From NCBI GenBank assembly GCA_017935065.1, contig JAGBIF010000027.1:1-57674 (forward strand): 57,674 nucleotides of DNA, read 5' to 3'. Within the stretch, counting starts at the first letter, position 1, and each line of letters begins with the position of its first letter. The translations under genes and the position numbers were made by a program. Positions 11,392-30,063 of this stretch are shown one piece after another. Source of the DNA: Clostridia bacterium (lineage in GTDB: Bacteria > Bacillota > Clostridia > Oscillospirales > CAG-272). The notes beneath the pieces are model-generated. The model did no database searches, was not told the DNA's origin, and saw only the letters and a program-made list of their open reading frames with translations.

Positions 11392-11406
11392 ATCACAAAA
11401 GAGGCA

Positions 11407-11562
11407 TAGCGTGAAAGCTTTGTAACATCTATTCTTTTGGATAGCCTGTTTCACGCCCGAATTTTCGCGATTTGGAGCCTTAGTCCAAATCGTCACGCCA
11501 AGCGTGATACCGAAAATTCATCAACGATTTGTGCGGTCGCCTATGGCGACGGAATGGAGATT
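11407..11562 (+). ncRNA. Three-way-junction leader element, copy 1
   Basis: A 156-nt element with eight differences from a copy at 15118-15273. A hairpin GCGTGAAA/TTTCACGC encloses CTATTC-tttt-GGATAG. A junction follows: closing helix GAATTTTCG (11459-11467)/CGAAAATTC (11511-11519), inner helix CGATTTGGA/TCCAAATCG, and inner helix TCACGC-caa-GCGTGA. Last comes GTCGCC-tat-GGCGAC (11539-11550), directly before the GGAG of the next gene. Differences between the copies fall in loops or keep pairing by G-U. A cis-acting RNA leader is the leading reading; a MITE-like or REP-like repeat is the alternative. Confidence 0.65.
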
Positions 11563-11565
11563 AAA

Positions 11566-12561
11566 ATGGAATTCAGTGTGCCAACTCTGATATATCAGGT
11601 TGTATTACTGTTTATAATGATGGTCCCGGGCTACCTTATCAAGCGTCTGGGGCTGGTTGATGACGGCTTCGCCAAGGGCGTGTCAAATCTCGTGCTTTAT
11701 ATCGCCCAGCCCGCGCTGGTCGTGGTATCGTACGTCAGAGCGTTCAATCTTGACATTCTTATAAACTCGCTTTGGGTATTTCTCTTTTCGATAGTCGCTC
11801 ACGCGCTCTTTTGCGCGGTGGCAATTCTGGTCTTTAAGAGTGCCGAGGATGCCAAGCGAAGAATGCTCACCTTCGCGACAATATTCTCAAACGCCGCGTT
11901 TATGGGAATTCCCCTGGTCGCGAAGATGAACCCCGATTGGGCGCTTTACGCGTCTATCTACAACATTACCTTCAATCTCTTCCTCTGGTCGCTCGGTGTC
12001 AATATCTGCACCAAGGACAGAGAGTGCGAGTGCGTGTGCGGTGAGGGATGCGAGCCGCTTCCCGCGCCCAAAATGAAGGGCGGCTCGATAAAGAACGCGA
12101 TAATACACCCCGTGTTCATTGCCGCCGTGATAGGTCTTACGATTTTCGTAACCCCCGCCTCGGAATGGCTCACCGAGGGCAATCTCGTCTTTGACTCGCT
12201 GAAGATGCTCTCAAACCTCGTAGCGCCTCTTTCTATGACGGTAATAGGAATACGTATGGCAGGAATTAATTTCAAGGGCTTCTTTACGGATAAGCTTCTC
12301 TATGTCTTTATGCTTCTTCGTCATATCGTCCTTCCGCTTCTGGTGGTTGGAATAATGAGGCTCATAGCGCTTTTCGCACCGATATCCGACGAGGTTATCT
12401 GGGTGACGGCAATACTCGCCTCAACCCCCGCCGCAAGCTCGGCTACGATGTTTGCCGTCAAGTACGATTGCGATGCGGAATACGTAAGCAAGGTGGTCGC
12501 CGCATCAACTATAATTTCGGTGGGAACTATGCCACTCGTTATGTTAATAGCAACTCTCTAA
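11566..12561 (+). CDS. AEC-family transporter (auxin-efflux-carrier type permease)
   Basis: A 331-aa integral membrane protein with about ten hydrophobic helices. Two halves each start with an IYQVVLLFIMMVPGYLIKRLG-like and a LSMTVIGIRMAG-like segment, as in the AEC/BART fold. A short cytoplasmic loop between them carries clustered Cys residues (residues about 146-156: CTKDRECECVCGEGC), which is unusual. AEC transporters export or import organic acids such as malate; the substrate here is unknown. The ATG at 11566 is chosen because GGAG lies 6 nt upstream, at the end of the structured leader; upstream in-frame starts would read through that leader. Confidence 0.85.
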   Translation: MEFSVPTLIYQVVLLFIMMVPGYLIKRLGLVDDGFAKGVSNLVLYIAQPALVVVSYVRAFNLDILINSLWVFLFSIVAHALFCAVAILVFKSAEDAKRRMLTFATIFSNAAFMGIPLVAKMNPDWALYASIYNITFNLFLWSLGVNICTKDRECECVCGEGCEPLPAPKMKGGSIKNAIIHPVFIAAVIGLTIFVTPASEWLTEGNLVFDSLKMLSNLVAPLSMTVIGIRMAGINFKGFFTDKLLYVFMLLRHIVLPLLVVGIMRLIALFAPISDEVIWVTAILASTPAASSATMFAVKYDCDAEYVSKVVAASTIISVGTMPLVMLIATL

Positions 12562-15117: not shown

Positions 15118-15273
15118 TAGCGTGAAAGTTATGTAACATCTATTCTTTCGGATAGTCGGTTTCACGCCCGAATTTTCGCGATTTGGAGCCTTAGTCCAAA
15201 TCGTCACGCCAAGCGTGATACCGAAAATTCATCAACGATTTGTGCGGTCGCCTACGGCGGCAGAATGGAGATT
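15118..15273 (+). ncRNA. Three-way-junction leader element, copy 2
   Basis: Same length (156 nt) and about 95% identical to the copy at 11407. Closing helix GAATTTTCG/CGAAAATTC and both inner helices are identical. The last hairpin is GTCGCC-tac-GGCGGC: one A-to-G change that keeps pairing as U-G. The first hairpin keeps GCGTGAAA/TTTCACGC while its interior varies. It fills the gap between nrdR and yicC and ends at the yicC GGAG. The copies share nothing in their downstream coding sequences. Confidence 0.65.
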
Positions 15274-15276
15274 GAT

Positions 15277-16164
15277 ATGATAAACAGTATGACCGCCTTC
15301 GGCAGAGGCCGCGCCGTAAGCGATACGCTTTCGGTGACGGTTGAGGTGAAGAGCGTTAACTCGCGCTTCTTTGACTGCACCGTAAAGGTGCCCCGCATGT
15401 ACGGTGAGCTTGAGGAGAGAATAAAGGGAATACTTCAGGATGAGTATATCTCGCGCGGAAAGCTTGACGTTTTCATTACCGTCGAGGAGCTTCGTGACAC
15501 GGGCTCTGAGGTCTACGTTGACCTTCCGCTTGCCGAGAAGTATATTTCGGCGCTTCGCACGCTTCGCGACAGCCTTGATATTCGCGACGATATAAGCGTT
15601 ATGAGCGTTGTAAGAAACCCCGACATCATTAAGACGCGCAGAGCCGAGTGTGACGTTGAGGCCGATTTTGCCACCATACGCGAGGCGCTCTGTCAGGCGG
15701 CACAGGGGCACCTTGAGATGAGGCGTGCCGAGGGTAGGCGAATACGCGCCGACATTATGGCAAAGCTTGATTTTCTCAAGAAAATGAGCCTTGAGATAGA
15801 GGAAATATCAAAGCGCGATACGGTAGGCTACCGCGATAAGCTCTATGCGAGAATAAAGAAGCTTCTCTCGGAAAACGAGGTCACGGTTGATGAAAACCGC
15901 CTTCTTACCGAGTGCGCAATATTTCAGGACAAGATAGCGATTGACGAGGAGCTTGTAAGACTTCGCGCCCACTTTGATGCCTTCGTTGAGATAGCCGAGC
16001 TTGACGAGCCGTCAGGCAGAAAGCTTGACTTCATAGTTCAGGAAATGAACAGGGAGACAAACACCATAGGCTCGAAATGCAACAATTCCGCTATCGCCCG
16101 CATAGTAGTGGATATGAAGGGCGAGATAGAAAAGATACGCGAGCAGATACAGAACGTGGAATGA
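15277..16164 (+). CDS. yicC: YicC-family endoribonuclease
   Basis: A 295-aa protein of the YicC/YloC family: N-terminal INSMTAFGRGRA and TVEVKSVNSRFFDC, C-terminal DUF1732-type segment ending EPSGRKLDFIVQEMNRETNTIGSK...IVVDMKGEIEKIREQIQNVE. E. coli YicC and B. subtilis YloC have reported RNase activity. In Firmicutes the gene commonly starts the series yicC-remA-gmk-rpoZ. The start at 15277 is preferred: GGAG is 6 nt upstream and family members begin near M-x-x-S-M-T-x-F-G. Its leader is the three-way-junction element. Confidence 0.92.
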   Translation: MINSMTAFGRGRAVSDTLSVTVEVKSVNSRFFDCTVKVPRMYGELEERIKGILQDEYISRGKLDVFITVEELRDTGSEVYVDLPLAEKYISALRTLRDSLDIRDDISVMSVVRNPDIIKTRRAECDVEADFATIREALCQAAQGHLEMRRAEGRRIRADIMAKLDFLKKMSLEIEEISKRDTVGYRDKLYARIKKLLSENEVTVDENRLLTECAIFQDKIAIDEELVRLRAHFDAFVEIAELDEPSGRKLDFIVQEMNRETNTIGSKCNNSAIARIVVDMKGEIEKIREQIQNVE

Positions 16165-16183: not shown

Positions 16184-16490
16184 GCAGTGAATAATGAATA
16201 ATGAATAATGGACTGTAGGGCGGGGGAATGTCATCCTGAGCCAACAAGCAATTGCTTGTTGCCCTGAGCGAAGCCGAAGGGGGTGTCGAACCCGTAGGGC
16301 GACGCTAAGCGTCGGGATCTCTCCCGCCGTGTACGCTACGCACACAGCAGGCGGTTGCACCGTAGGGCGGGGGTTCTACTCCCGCCGTGTACGCTACGCA
16401 CACAGCAAGCGGTTGCACCGTAGGGCGACGCGAAGCGTCGGGATCTCTCCCGCCGTGTAGGCAAAGCACACAGCAGATATTTGAGAGGAA
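16184..16490. repeat. Composite intergenic repeat K1 (cgtagggcgacgc...family)
   Basis: Starts with gaataat heptamers, then a scaffold with hairpins: tgtagggcgggggaatgtcatcctgagc split by CAACAAGC-AA-TTGC..-type palindrome (CAACAAGCAATTGCTTGTTG), GACGC-taa-GCGTC, gggatctctcccgccgtgta, and cacacagc. The block gtagggcg...cacacagc repeats three times with small changes (cgctacg versus ggcaaag in the same slot). It fills the yicC-remA gap of 330 nt, where no gene is seen. A closely related copy is at 20005-20248. Confidence 0.75.
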
Positions 16491-16494
16491 AAAT

Positions 16495-16764
16495 ATGAAA
16501 TTTATCAACATAGGCTTTGGAAATATGGTGTCGGCGGGGAGGATAATTACTATTGCAAGCCCTGATTCGGCACCTATAAAGAGACTTGTTCAGGATGCCA
16601 AGGAGGACGGACGCGTTATTGACGTTTCCTGTGGAAGGCGCACGCGCTCGGTGATCGTCACCGATTCCGACCACGTGATACTCTCGGCAATTCAGGCAGA
16701 GACGGTCGCGGGCAGGCTTTCGTTTGACGGCGATGATGAAGAGACCGATCCTGACGACGAATAG
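16495..16764 (+). CDS. remA: RemA-like (DUF370) regulator
   Basis: An 89-aa protein matching the RemA/YlzA family: [28 protein letters not shown] and [19 protein letters not shown]. In B. subtilis RemA is an oligomeric DNA-binding activator of matrix and osmoprotection genes; in Clostridia the family is widespread. An acidic tail ([10 protein letters not shown]) is present. GAGAGG precedes the ATG. The gene normally sits between yicC and gmk; here rpoZ follows directly, so gmk is missing. Confidence 0.92.
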
Positions 16765-20004: not shown

Positions 20005-20248
20005 TGTAGGGCGGGGGAATGTCATCCTGAGCGGAGGGCAAAGCCCGCAGTCGAACCCGTAGGGCGACGCGAAGCGTCGGGATCTCTCCCGCCGTGTAGG
20101 CAAAGCACACAGCGGGTGGTTGCACCGTAGGACGAGGGGAATGTCATCCTGAGCCAACAAGCAATTGCTTGTTGCCCTGAGCGAAGCCGAAGGGGGTGTC
20201 GAACCCGTAGGGCGACGCAAAGCGTCGGGATCTCTCCCGCCGTTTAGG
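20005..20248. repeat. Composite intergenic repeats K2 and K3
   Basis: Two tandem copies of the scaffold seen at 16212. Copy K2 has GGGC-aaa-GCCC after gtcatcctgagc, whereas K3 and K1 have the palindrome CAACAAGCAATTGCTTGTTG plus ccctgagcgaagccgaagg in the same slot. The next hairpin is GACGC-gaa-GCGTC in K2, GACGC-aaa-GCGTC in K3 and GACGC-taa-GCGTC in K1. No gene is seen. Confidence 0.78.
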
Positions 20249-20345
20249 GAATCATATCATAACGTCTGCCTTTGGCAGATTCATAACGATGCGAAGCATC
20301 TTATAACTTTTGCCTTTGGCAAAATCATAACTCTAAACTAAATTC
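20249..20345. repeat. Hairpin array F (linker tcataac)
   Basis: TCTGCC-ttt-GGCAGA, GATGC-gaa-GCATC and TTTTGCC-ttt-GGCAAAA separated by tcataac/ttataac. The linker differs from neighbouring arrays although the GATGCGAAGCATC hairpin is identical to one at position 48. Confidence 0.8.
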
Positions 20346-28488: not shown

Positions 28489-28517
28489 TTGACAAAAGCG
28501 AATAGGGGTGATATAAT
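28489..28517 (+). promoter_or_regulatory. Promoter of rplJ-rplL
   Basis: Consensus TTGACA (28489-28494), 17-nt spacer, TATAAT (28512-28517). Transcription should start near 28524, at the 5' end of the L10 leader. Confidence 0.85.
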
Positions 28518-28527
28518 CTTCAAGGTA

Positions 28528-28658
28528 TCCTAAGACAGCAGGTTACGGTAAAAGCGCTGAGCTTTCCTGCCGAGGTGAACGAATTTAAAAATCTATATGC
28601 TTTTTACTTTTGTCCTGTCTCGGCTCTTGCTATGCGTCTTGCCGTGATAGGATTTTTT
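28528..28658 (+). ncRNA. L10 leader (ribosomal protein autoregulatory RNA)
   Basis: The 5' side cctaagacagcagg and the paired side CCTGCCGAGG (28566-28575) match the L10(L12)4-binding leader of Firmicutes. It ends in an attenuator: TCCTGTCTCGGC (28613-28624) with GCCGTGATAGGA (28641-28652), followed by six T. Excess L10 complex would favour termination or block expression of rplJL. Confidence 0.85.
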
Positions 28659-28685
28659 GTTTTAAATTTTTATGGAGGTAGAATA

Positions 28686-29690: not shown

Positions 29691-29989
29691 CGGCAAGCGA
29701 CTTTTGGCGCATACCGTCCGTTTCCTCGCTTGCCGTAGGTAACTACGGCTGGCGCTCGTCATCCGTCGGTCTCCACCTAAAATTCGCTTGCCGAAACTGT
29801 GCGAGATTATGGCGACCGTCCGTTTCTCGCTCGGTAGGGCGTATGCAAGGCTCTAACTATGGCAAATGTTGGGCTTTCGGTTTGCCTTGCTATAATTTTC
29901 GCAAAACGCAATTCAGCGCGCGTTTTGTCGCCAAAAGGCGATACCGAAAATTCGGTCGGGCTTTGGCGGTTGATTGTAGGACGGGAGAA
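29691..29989 (+). repeat. Complex repeat block with a third three-way junction
   Basis: The first part has GGCAAGCGA...TCGCTTGCC and GTAG-gtaa-CTAC helices and two accgtccgttt motifs. The second part (29845-29952) parallels the leaders at 11407 and 15118: GCAAGGC...GCCTTGC, closing helix AATTTTCG (29894-29901)/CGAAAATT (29945-29952), inner helices CAAAACGC/GCGTTTTG and CGCC-aaaa-GGCG, and the same gataccgaaaattc strand. Inner helices differ fully in sequence but not in layout. No gene follows directly. The gap 29634-30296 contains only this block and arrays H and I. Confidence 0.55.
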
Positions 29990-30063
29990 TGAAATCCGAC
30001 CCTGTCGGATGAAATCACTCTGTGATGAAATCGCTACGCGATGAAATCCGACTTCGTCGGGTT
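29990..30063. repeat. Hairpin array H (linker gaaatc)
   Basis: CCGAC-cct-GTCGG, CAC-tct-GTG, CGC-tac-GCG and CCGAC-ttc-GTCGG separated by atgaaatc. The linker and one hairpin are shared with array E. Confidence 0.8.

Follow-up and report, generated by a model that had tools for sequence, protein, structure and literature searches.

A small structured repeat that probably moves as a unit into the Shine-Dalgarno to start codon spacer and brings a candidate replacement ribosome binding site

The window analyzed here is a 57,674-nt stretch of DNA from a Clostridia bacterium of the order Oscillospirales. Two segments of 156 nt each, one directly 5' of a gene for an AEC transporter and the other directly 5' of yicC, differ by 8 substitutions without gaps (95% identity), in line with the roughly eight differences given in the first-pass annotation. 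Both contain a hairpin at the 5' end (P1), a three-way junction, a terminal hairpin and a Shine-Dalgarno (SD) sequence. A relative with a similar core lies elsewhere in the window, away from any start codon. All of the following features are on the + strand.

11400 to 11404, +: AGAGG, the probable native SD, stranded upstream of copy 1 (from sequence)
11407 to 11562, +: full element, copy 1, 5' of the AEC transporter gene (ATG at 11566); covariance model score 170.5 bits
11409 to 11416, +: 5' strand of P1, GCGTGAAA, the 5' end hairpin of copy 1 (fold and covariation)
11449 to 11456, +: 3' strand of P1, TTTCACGC, copy 1 (fold and covariation)
11459 to 11519, +: three-way junction, copy 1 (fold and covariation)
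11459 to 11467 and 11511 to 11519, +: closing helix of the junction, copy 1, GAATTTTCG / CGAAAATTC
11468 to 11492 and 11493 to 11507, +: inner helices of the junction, copy 1
11536 to 11550, +: terminal hairpin GTCGCC-TAT-GGCGAC, copy 1, its foot 15 nt from the ATG
11556 to 11562, +: GGAGATT, the element's own SD and 3' end, copy 1
15118 to 15273, +: full element, copy 2, 5' of yicC (ATG at 15277); covariance model score 168.1 bits
15120 to 15127, +: 5' strand of P1, copy 2 (fold and covariation)
15160 to 15167, +: 3' strand of P1, copy 2 (fold and covariation)
15170 to 15230, +: three-way junction, copy 2 (fold and covariation)
15247 to 15261, +: terminal hairpin GTCGCC-TAC-GGCGGC, copy 2
15267 to 15273, +: GGAGATT, the own SD of copy 2
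29843 to 29990, +: family B relative, a core without the ribosome binding site (RBS) module, away from a start codon

The predicted folding energies are -52.0 kcal/mol for copy 1 (z -3.53) and -51.6 kcal/mol for copy 2 (z -3.36), and none of 200 dinucleotide shuffles of either copy folds as well. The layout originally drawn for these segments is right: a capped hairpin comes first, then a three-way junction whose closing helix is GAATTTTCG/CGAAAATTC, then a last hairpin, in which one substitution does change a U-A pair to U-G. The GGAG had been taken for the RBS of the downstream gene. This assignment is wrong: GGAG is a component of the element, and 13 of 15 copies have GGAGATT at this point.

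Those 15 full copies (90-100% identity) come from the 1.74-Mb assembly, which is 75% complete and also has two short remnants of the 3' end; the other full copies are 90-96% identical to copy 1. When the 15 are aligned with their flanks, full copies of 154-156 nt start with TAGCGTGAA and finish with GAATGGAGATT, apart from L014 (GAAGGTT, GAATGAAGGTT) and L013 (GGAGAT, GAATGGAGAT). Exactly three bases and then an ATG follow 13 of them. The remaining two each form the first half of a tandem pair, with the junction GGAGAT/TAGCGTG. By eye, the upstream flanks have nothing in common save an SD-like run shortly before the left end in most (GAGGTAT/TAG, GAGGTGG/TAG and GGAGGCGG/TAG). A comparison by eye of the 5' end, TAGCGTGAAA, with the reverse complement of the 3' end, GAATGGAGATT, gave no terminal inverted repeat in these copies, and their 5' and 3' flanks show no general match. 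A target-site duplication of the SD, hinted at by the L041 copy, is not general.

The placement of the element relative to genes was scored for 49 full copies, defined as matches with a covariance score of 78 bits or higher that come from nine genomes of the genus and lie outside an array on G056:C66, one unit of which also exceeds 78 bits. Directly 3' of 46 of these copies is an ATG with an open reading frame of at least 60 codons; the same start test is passed by 14% of random positions in the same stretches (2238/15696, with in-frame intragenic codons included). Two of the other three are first tandem halves, and the third (L026) faces ATG-ATT-TAA, the apparent remains of a lost gene. A leader with ATA where the start codon is expected (L371) likewise seems to precede a decayed gene. 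The offset of +3 to the start codon is partly built in, since 37 copies were trimmed relative to the downstream ATG. The distance from the foot of the terminal hairpin to the start codon is free of this trimming, and it is 13-17 nt in 43 of 46 copies and exactly 15 nt in 33. The three outlying distances (6, 9 and 11) arise where the hairpin was misplaced or where an in-frame start codon occurs earlier.

The same placement is seen outside the genus, where 28 of 29 copies have an ATG within 5 bases of the model end and an open reading frame of at least 40 codons. Units were also read in two genomes of other genera, in stretches that cover part of the pattern-matched places. Pattern searches of G351 gave 79 + 74 matches (none in the reversed control); these totals count many hairpins twice, once per strand, as at 29 of 52 forward sites of the stretches examined. 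With mirror-strand matches removed (10 in G351, 1 in G433), the 68 units of G351 comprise 39 leaders, 18 units followed by another unit, 10 without a start and 1 at an edge, and the 14 units of G433 comprise 12 leaders and 2 followed by another unit.

A DNA search recovered the element from 9 of 98 genomes including its own, all of one genus, and full-length relatives in the other genomes have at most 82% identity. A covariance model was built from 26 diverse copies (alignment A2). In this alignment 93.5% of cells are paired, and pairing collapses when the partner strand is slid. Both sides of a pair have changed in 64 cells, compared with 19.6 in shuffles, and 0 of 500 shuffles reach 64. Within the genus the model finds 18 of 69 genomes positive including its own, with full copies in nine; its 122 matches include many weak, truncated or family B ones. 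Across the order it finds 13 of 394 genomes, which represent 10 of 168 genera (again including its own) and three families.

Copies from the other genera differ completely in inner sequence and keep the ends: TAGCGTGAAA...TTTCACGC on the left and the hairpin plus GGAATGGAGATT on the right. The elements there span 113-195 nt by covariance-model bounds. The 29 copies considered are a subset of 43 out-of-genus rows, and two further G351 copies are counted with the G351 units. In their alignment (A3), which was fitted to the covariance model and hence leans toward its structure, 144 cells have changed on both sides (49 in shuffles), and such changes occur in 27 of 37 pairs (17.8 in shuffles). P1 is almost invariant in sequence, and inner helices 3 and 4 of the junction are missing in at least half of the rows. 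The first-pass annotation had called for a model, a search and a covariation test, and it held that random placement with respect to genes and strand, or changes that break the helices, would count against a cis-regulatory RNA spread as a unit. Helices are kept by their changes and placement on the gene strand at a near-fixed distance is nonrandom, so the part of its proposal that concerns a structured leader spread as a unit stands.

The terminal hairpin can be followed separately. A perfect GC-rich stem of 6 bp is present in 117 of 145 modules and in 1 of 145 after shuffling, a count in which a few wrong picks are scored as failures. These modules were chosen for having an ATG (one without an open reading frame was kept apart), so they are uninformative on placement. 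The second pair is TA in 67, CG in 45 and GC in 12, and covariant versions of the stem include GTCGCC/GGCGAC, GCCGCC/GGCGGC, GCTGCC/GGCAGC and GCCGTC/GACGGC. The hairpin plus GGAG pattern matches 49 times in 12 of 69 genomes of the genus, with 0 matches in the reversed control. Searched in one genome per species (84,980 species), it matched 53 stretches. Thirty-nine are from metagenome-assembled genomes named 'Clostridia bacterium' with titles that mention deer, goat or sheep gut, six lie in unrelated GC-rich taxa without a correctly placed ATG and look like chance matches, and the remaining eight are mixed.

The element does not correspond to a known RNA family. Neither window copy was matched by Rfam even at E <= 1, and for the loci of seven relatives the matches listed are tRNAs or fall below cut-off. 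The lone near match, to Gut-1, lies in neighboring repeats of another kind. These are short palindromic repeats at 29987-30052 of the window (GATGAAATC...) and at 1688-1767 of L081 (GATATGCGCTTCGCGC...), which score 39-40 bits against a cut-off of 50. Gut-1 is a noncoding RNA known, according to the accessible text of its description, from human gut sequences only (PMC2864571); the matches here are interspersed genomic repeats. The window also contains mosaic repeats of 89-111 nt at 16223-16499 and 20050-20286 (CGTAGGGCG...ATCTCTCCCGCCGTG), of which the best pairs are 91% and 98% alike, and a ribosomal protein L10 leader at 28511-28668 (RF00557, 56.4 bits).

Seven element sites were sought in relatives that lack the element, which gave four usable counterparts, three of them clean. 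(The names ruvC, methyltransferase, prfA, pyrH and murG used here are read from sequence without a database search.) At the ruvC-methyltransferase site, G031 has AATCAGAGGTGAA-element-AATATGTGG and G051 has the empty site AATCAGAGGTAATAAAAATGTGG, with five more genomes also lacking the element. The G031 locus L041 reads TTTTTCGGGAGGA-element-ATTATGAGC against TTTTTCGGAGGAAGATTATATGAGC in G051, and the prfA site of G041 reads TAATTTACTGAGAA-element-AATATGTTTTTAG against TAATTTAAAGGTAACGTATGTTTTTAG in G058. At all three the element separates the ATG from the native SD-like run, which is kept upstream, and no target-site duplication is seen. The fourth (L028) has lost about 25 nt, the native SD among them, so insertion there was not clean. 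As read from these alignments, the comparison shows that insertion of about 155 nt parts the presumptive native SD from its ATG.

A preference for this position extends to the full set. Of the 49 full copies, 39 have an SD-like core within 14 nt upstream of the left end, compared with 20% of random positions (1624/8067), as do 26 of 29 copies from other genera. Copy 2, which has no clear native SD upstream, is among the 10 full copies that lack one. Immediately upstream of 19 of the 68 G351 units is an older hairpin and SD module, as if the element had entered again behind its own RBS.

The genes downstream of the element have little in common. Those in this genome (13, three without a Pfam match) are unrelated and include an AEC transporter, DegV, YicC, a Mur ligase, Fic, cytidine deaminase, MORN, a penicillinase-repressor family protein, DUF3737 and LysM. 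The 46 target genes of the nine genomes include a single orthologous pair (prfA, shared by G023 and G041), and several (prfA, pyrH and murG) look like housekeeping genes. Vertical inheritance at the two window genes can be rejected. Matching loci, own included, were examined for yicC in 30 of 64 genomes and for AEC in 30 of about 66, a few of them truncated at a contig end or aligned within the gene, and P1 or the module is absent within 400 nt 5' of the start at 29 of 29 yicC and 29 of 29 AEC loci of other genomes of the genus.

Many matches retain the hairpin and GGAG before an ATG but no longer have the core. In L276 and L284 a stub of the left end is joined to the right module, L105, L129 and L134 retain the right module together with a P1-like hairpin, and other derivatives consist of the right module alone. 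The gene apparently does not need the core and keeps the RBS.

The converse arrangement is found in family B, which has the same core plan (P1 GCAAGGC/GCCTTGC and a junction closed by AATTTTCG/CGAAAATT). The assembly gives 29 family B matches of 35-54 bits, and the 15 whose sequences were examined are all of this type, without the RBS module. They are intergenic and sometimes tandem; among 25 copies read, none stands before a start codon and 4 are followed by another unit. Core units also form arrays. On G056:C66 (L038), 12 units spaced 90-126 nt apart lie between two genes, with an inner hairpin in four and missing in eight, and the next gene has an ordinary SD. In G351, core units at L365, L366 and L379 follow one another with junctions that read GTTATATGCAAGAC/AGCGTG or nearly so, and L366 and L379 have one RBS module, only at the end of the row before the gene.

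We consider it probable that these sequences are a small, nonautonomous mobile leader that prefers the spacer between SD and ATG and supplies a replacement RBS. The native promoter would transcribe the element as part of the 5' untranslated region, and the displaced native SD would no longer serve the gene. Its place would be taken by the GGAG of the element. The terminal hairpin has its foot about 15 nt 5' of the AUG, which we take to be near the edge of the 30S footprint, and it may keep the RBS open. A functioning GGAG, an idle native SD and a hairpin that guards the site are each suggested by sequence. The conserved P1 end and 3' end might be recognized by an enzyme acting in trans, and the supplied RBS would make insertion before housekeeping genes tolerable.

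The first-pass annotation favored a cis-regulatory RNA spread as a unit. Such a class, either riboswitch-like or bound by a protein, would control the translation of many genes and owe its copying to the usefulness of that control. The features shared with such classes are a conserved, covarying structure maintained over an order and a 5' position on the gene strand (46/49 and 28/29). Some G351 leaders also have several cores before one RBS, like tandem regulators. A coherent set of targets kept at orthologues is not found among the 46 genes, which have no common function and yield a single orthologous pair. The core is deleted from many copies that retain the RBS module, at least half of the 29 rows from other genera lack inner helices 3 and 4, cores and an array occur away from start codons, and Rfam offers no match. 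Together with the insertion between SD and ATG, which that annotation had left out of account, the unrelated genes, core-less derivatives and cores away from starts leave the cis-regulatory claim unsupported, and we regard a dedicated regulatory class as unlikely. Some regulation by the leader is possible.

An ordinary repeat of the MITE or REP type could also have inserted at random, with the survivors being those insertions that left a working RBS. Related cores without the RBS module are indeed scattered between genes, and the module is kept in deletion derivatives, so selection does act. However, 48 of 49 copies lie in the sense direction before a gene or a further copy, the exception being L026 with its lost gene, although intergenic sites such as those used by family B exist in the same genome. 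The recurrent presence immediately behind an existing SD also speaks against purely random entry, and we judge this explanation quite improbable.

Movement without transposition, by homologous recombination or gene conversion that copies 5' untranslated regions within a genome, would fit the 90-96% identity of copies within the genome as compared with at most 82% for full-length relatives elsewhere. However, the flanks of the 15 copies have no similarity visible by eye, and the empty sites indicate a bare insertion with native flanks kept. There is therefore little homology to recombine, which makes this route very unlikely. A leader peptide gene, in which a short reading frame coupled to the gene would be translated from the native SD and a conserved GUG (AGC-GUG-AAA), is the least credible reading and can be set aside, since the start-like SD-to-GUG spacing and the conservation of the GUG (46/49, because it pairs in P1) are accompanied by reading frames of 1 to 54 codons and one long read-through, with neither sequence nor frame kept among copies and a stop inside the element in 44 of 46.

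For a mobile leader, as we prefer, the machinery might be sought in the carrier genomes. Neither a Y1 transposase nor a reverse transcriptase is clearly associated with carriers, and both are rejected as the driver. Y1 transposases above cut-off occur in 5 of 18 covariance-positive genomes and in 10 of 51 others of the genus, and are absent from six of the nine genomes with full copies (G000, which is 75% complete, G014, G041, G042, G052 and G055). RVT_1 occurs in 4 of 21 carriers and in 2 of 10 genomes without a match, and is missing from G000, G351, G433 and G337. Given this distribution and the lack of an Rfam intron match, a retro-element or group II intron derivative is not supported either. 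No conserved open reading frame is present within the element in the 49 copies.

Spread on phages or plasmids is likewise not indicated. The 156-nt copy was unmatched in a phage and plasmid search, and scans of viral sequences gave 0 matches for the genus core, 1 for the RBS module and 0 for a GC variant of the module. The P1 pattern matched 111 viral stretches; the 84 matches read in 80 of these have no RBS hairpin behind them by regular expression (0/84), so they look like chance. One viral contig (IMGVR_UViG_3300032330_001199; L085 6465-6488) carries a lone hairpin and GGAG directly before an ATG, perhaps captured from a host.

A promoter-like pair with at least 10 of 12 matching positions occurs within 110 nt upstream of 12 of 49 copies, a count for which the chance level was not computed, and inside the element in 0 of 49. 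An internal promoter is thus rejected at this threshold, and the leader probably lies inside the transcript.

Several known repeats share features with this element. BOX elements are modular (boxA-boxB-boxC), with a variable number of inner boxB units, and the arrays of G351 and G056 resemble this organization. In the accessible text of their description, the BOX, RUP and SPRITE repeats of Streptococcus pneumoniae are likewise small, interspersed, structured and cotranscribed, without a clear link to gene function (PMC3049150). They are over-represented between convergent genes, according to the same text, and the terminal inverted repeats of BOX resemble those of a resident insertion sequence (PMC3049150). 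In contrast to these repeats as described there, the present element is found 5' of start codons at a nearly fixed distance, finishes with an RBS and lacks terminal inverted repeats, an absence that argues against a BOX element, from which it is set apart by description. Prokaryotic MITEs are likewise short, nonautonomous and strongly structured, and in the accessible text of a review of them the terms 'ribosome', 'Shine-Dalgarno', 'RBS' and 'start codon' occur 0 times (PMC10969869). Unlike MITEs, the element is without terminal inverted repeats, and no target-site duplication was seen.

The REPIN and IS200-IS605-type elements moved by Y1 (HUH) transposases have strand-specific end hairpins, make no duplication, and show an end-to-start junction in tandem copies and a short target beside the 5' end. 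The element resembles them in its hairpins near both ends, its lack of a duplication, its end-to-start tandem junction and a short target adjoining its 5' end. It differs from them in having no clear link to Y1 in the genus and a target that is SD-like, not a fixed tetranucleotide. Putative mobile promoters are short mobile sequences that give a gene an expression signal. The signal of this element, unlike theirs, is an RBS.

Genes are known to acquire promoters, terminators or nuclease sites from mobile elements. Among the best-ranked results from the open-access literature, which leaves out most subscription papers and in which absence is not proof, none describes in its title or opening lines a repeat that enters between an SD and a start codon or has an RBS of its own. 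We see an about even chance that these sequences represent a new class of mobile element with a translational target, one that recognizes the spacer between SD and start codon, swaps in a hairpin-guarded RBS, occurs across an order of gut Clostridia and leaves the RBS behind. At least one genome has tens of copies of the element. If this interpretation is true, it can sit before essential genes, and the RBS that it leaves would over time become the host's own. This would be a new route for the evolution of translation signals, and it would account for the start region that unrelated genes of these bacteria have in common. It would also make testable the question of how an insertion apparatus finds start regions, for which natural copies, empty sites and variants exist.
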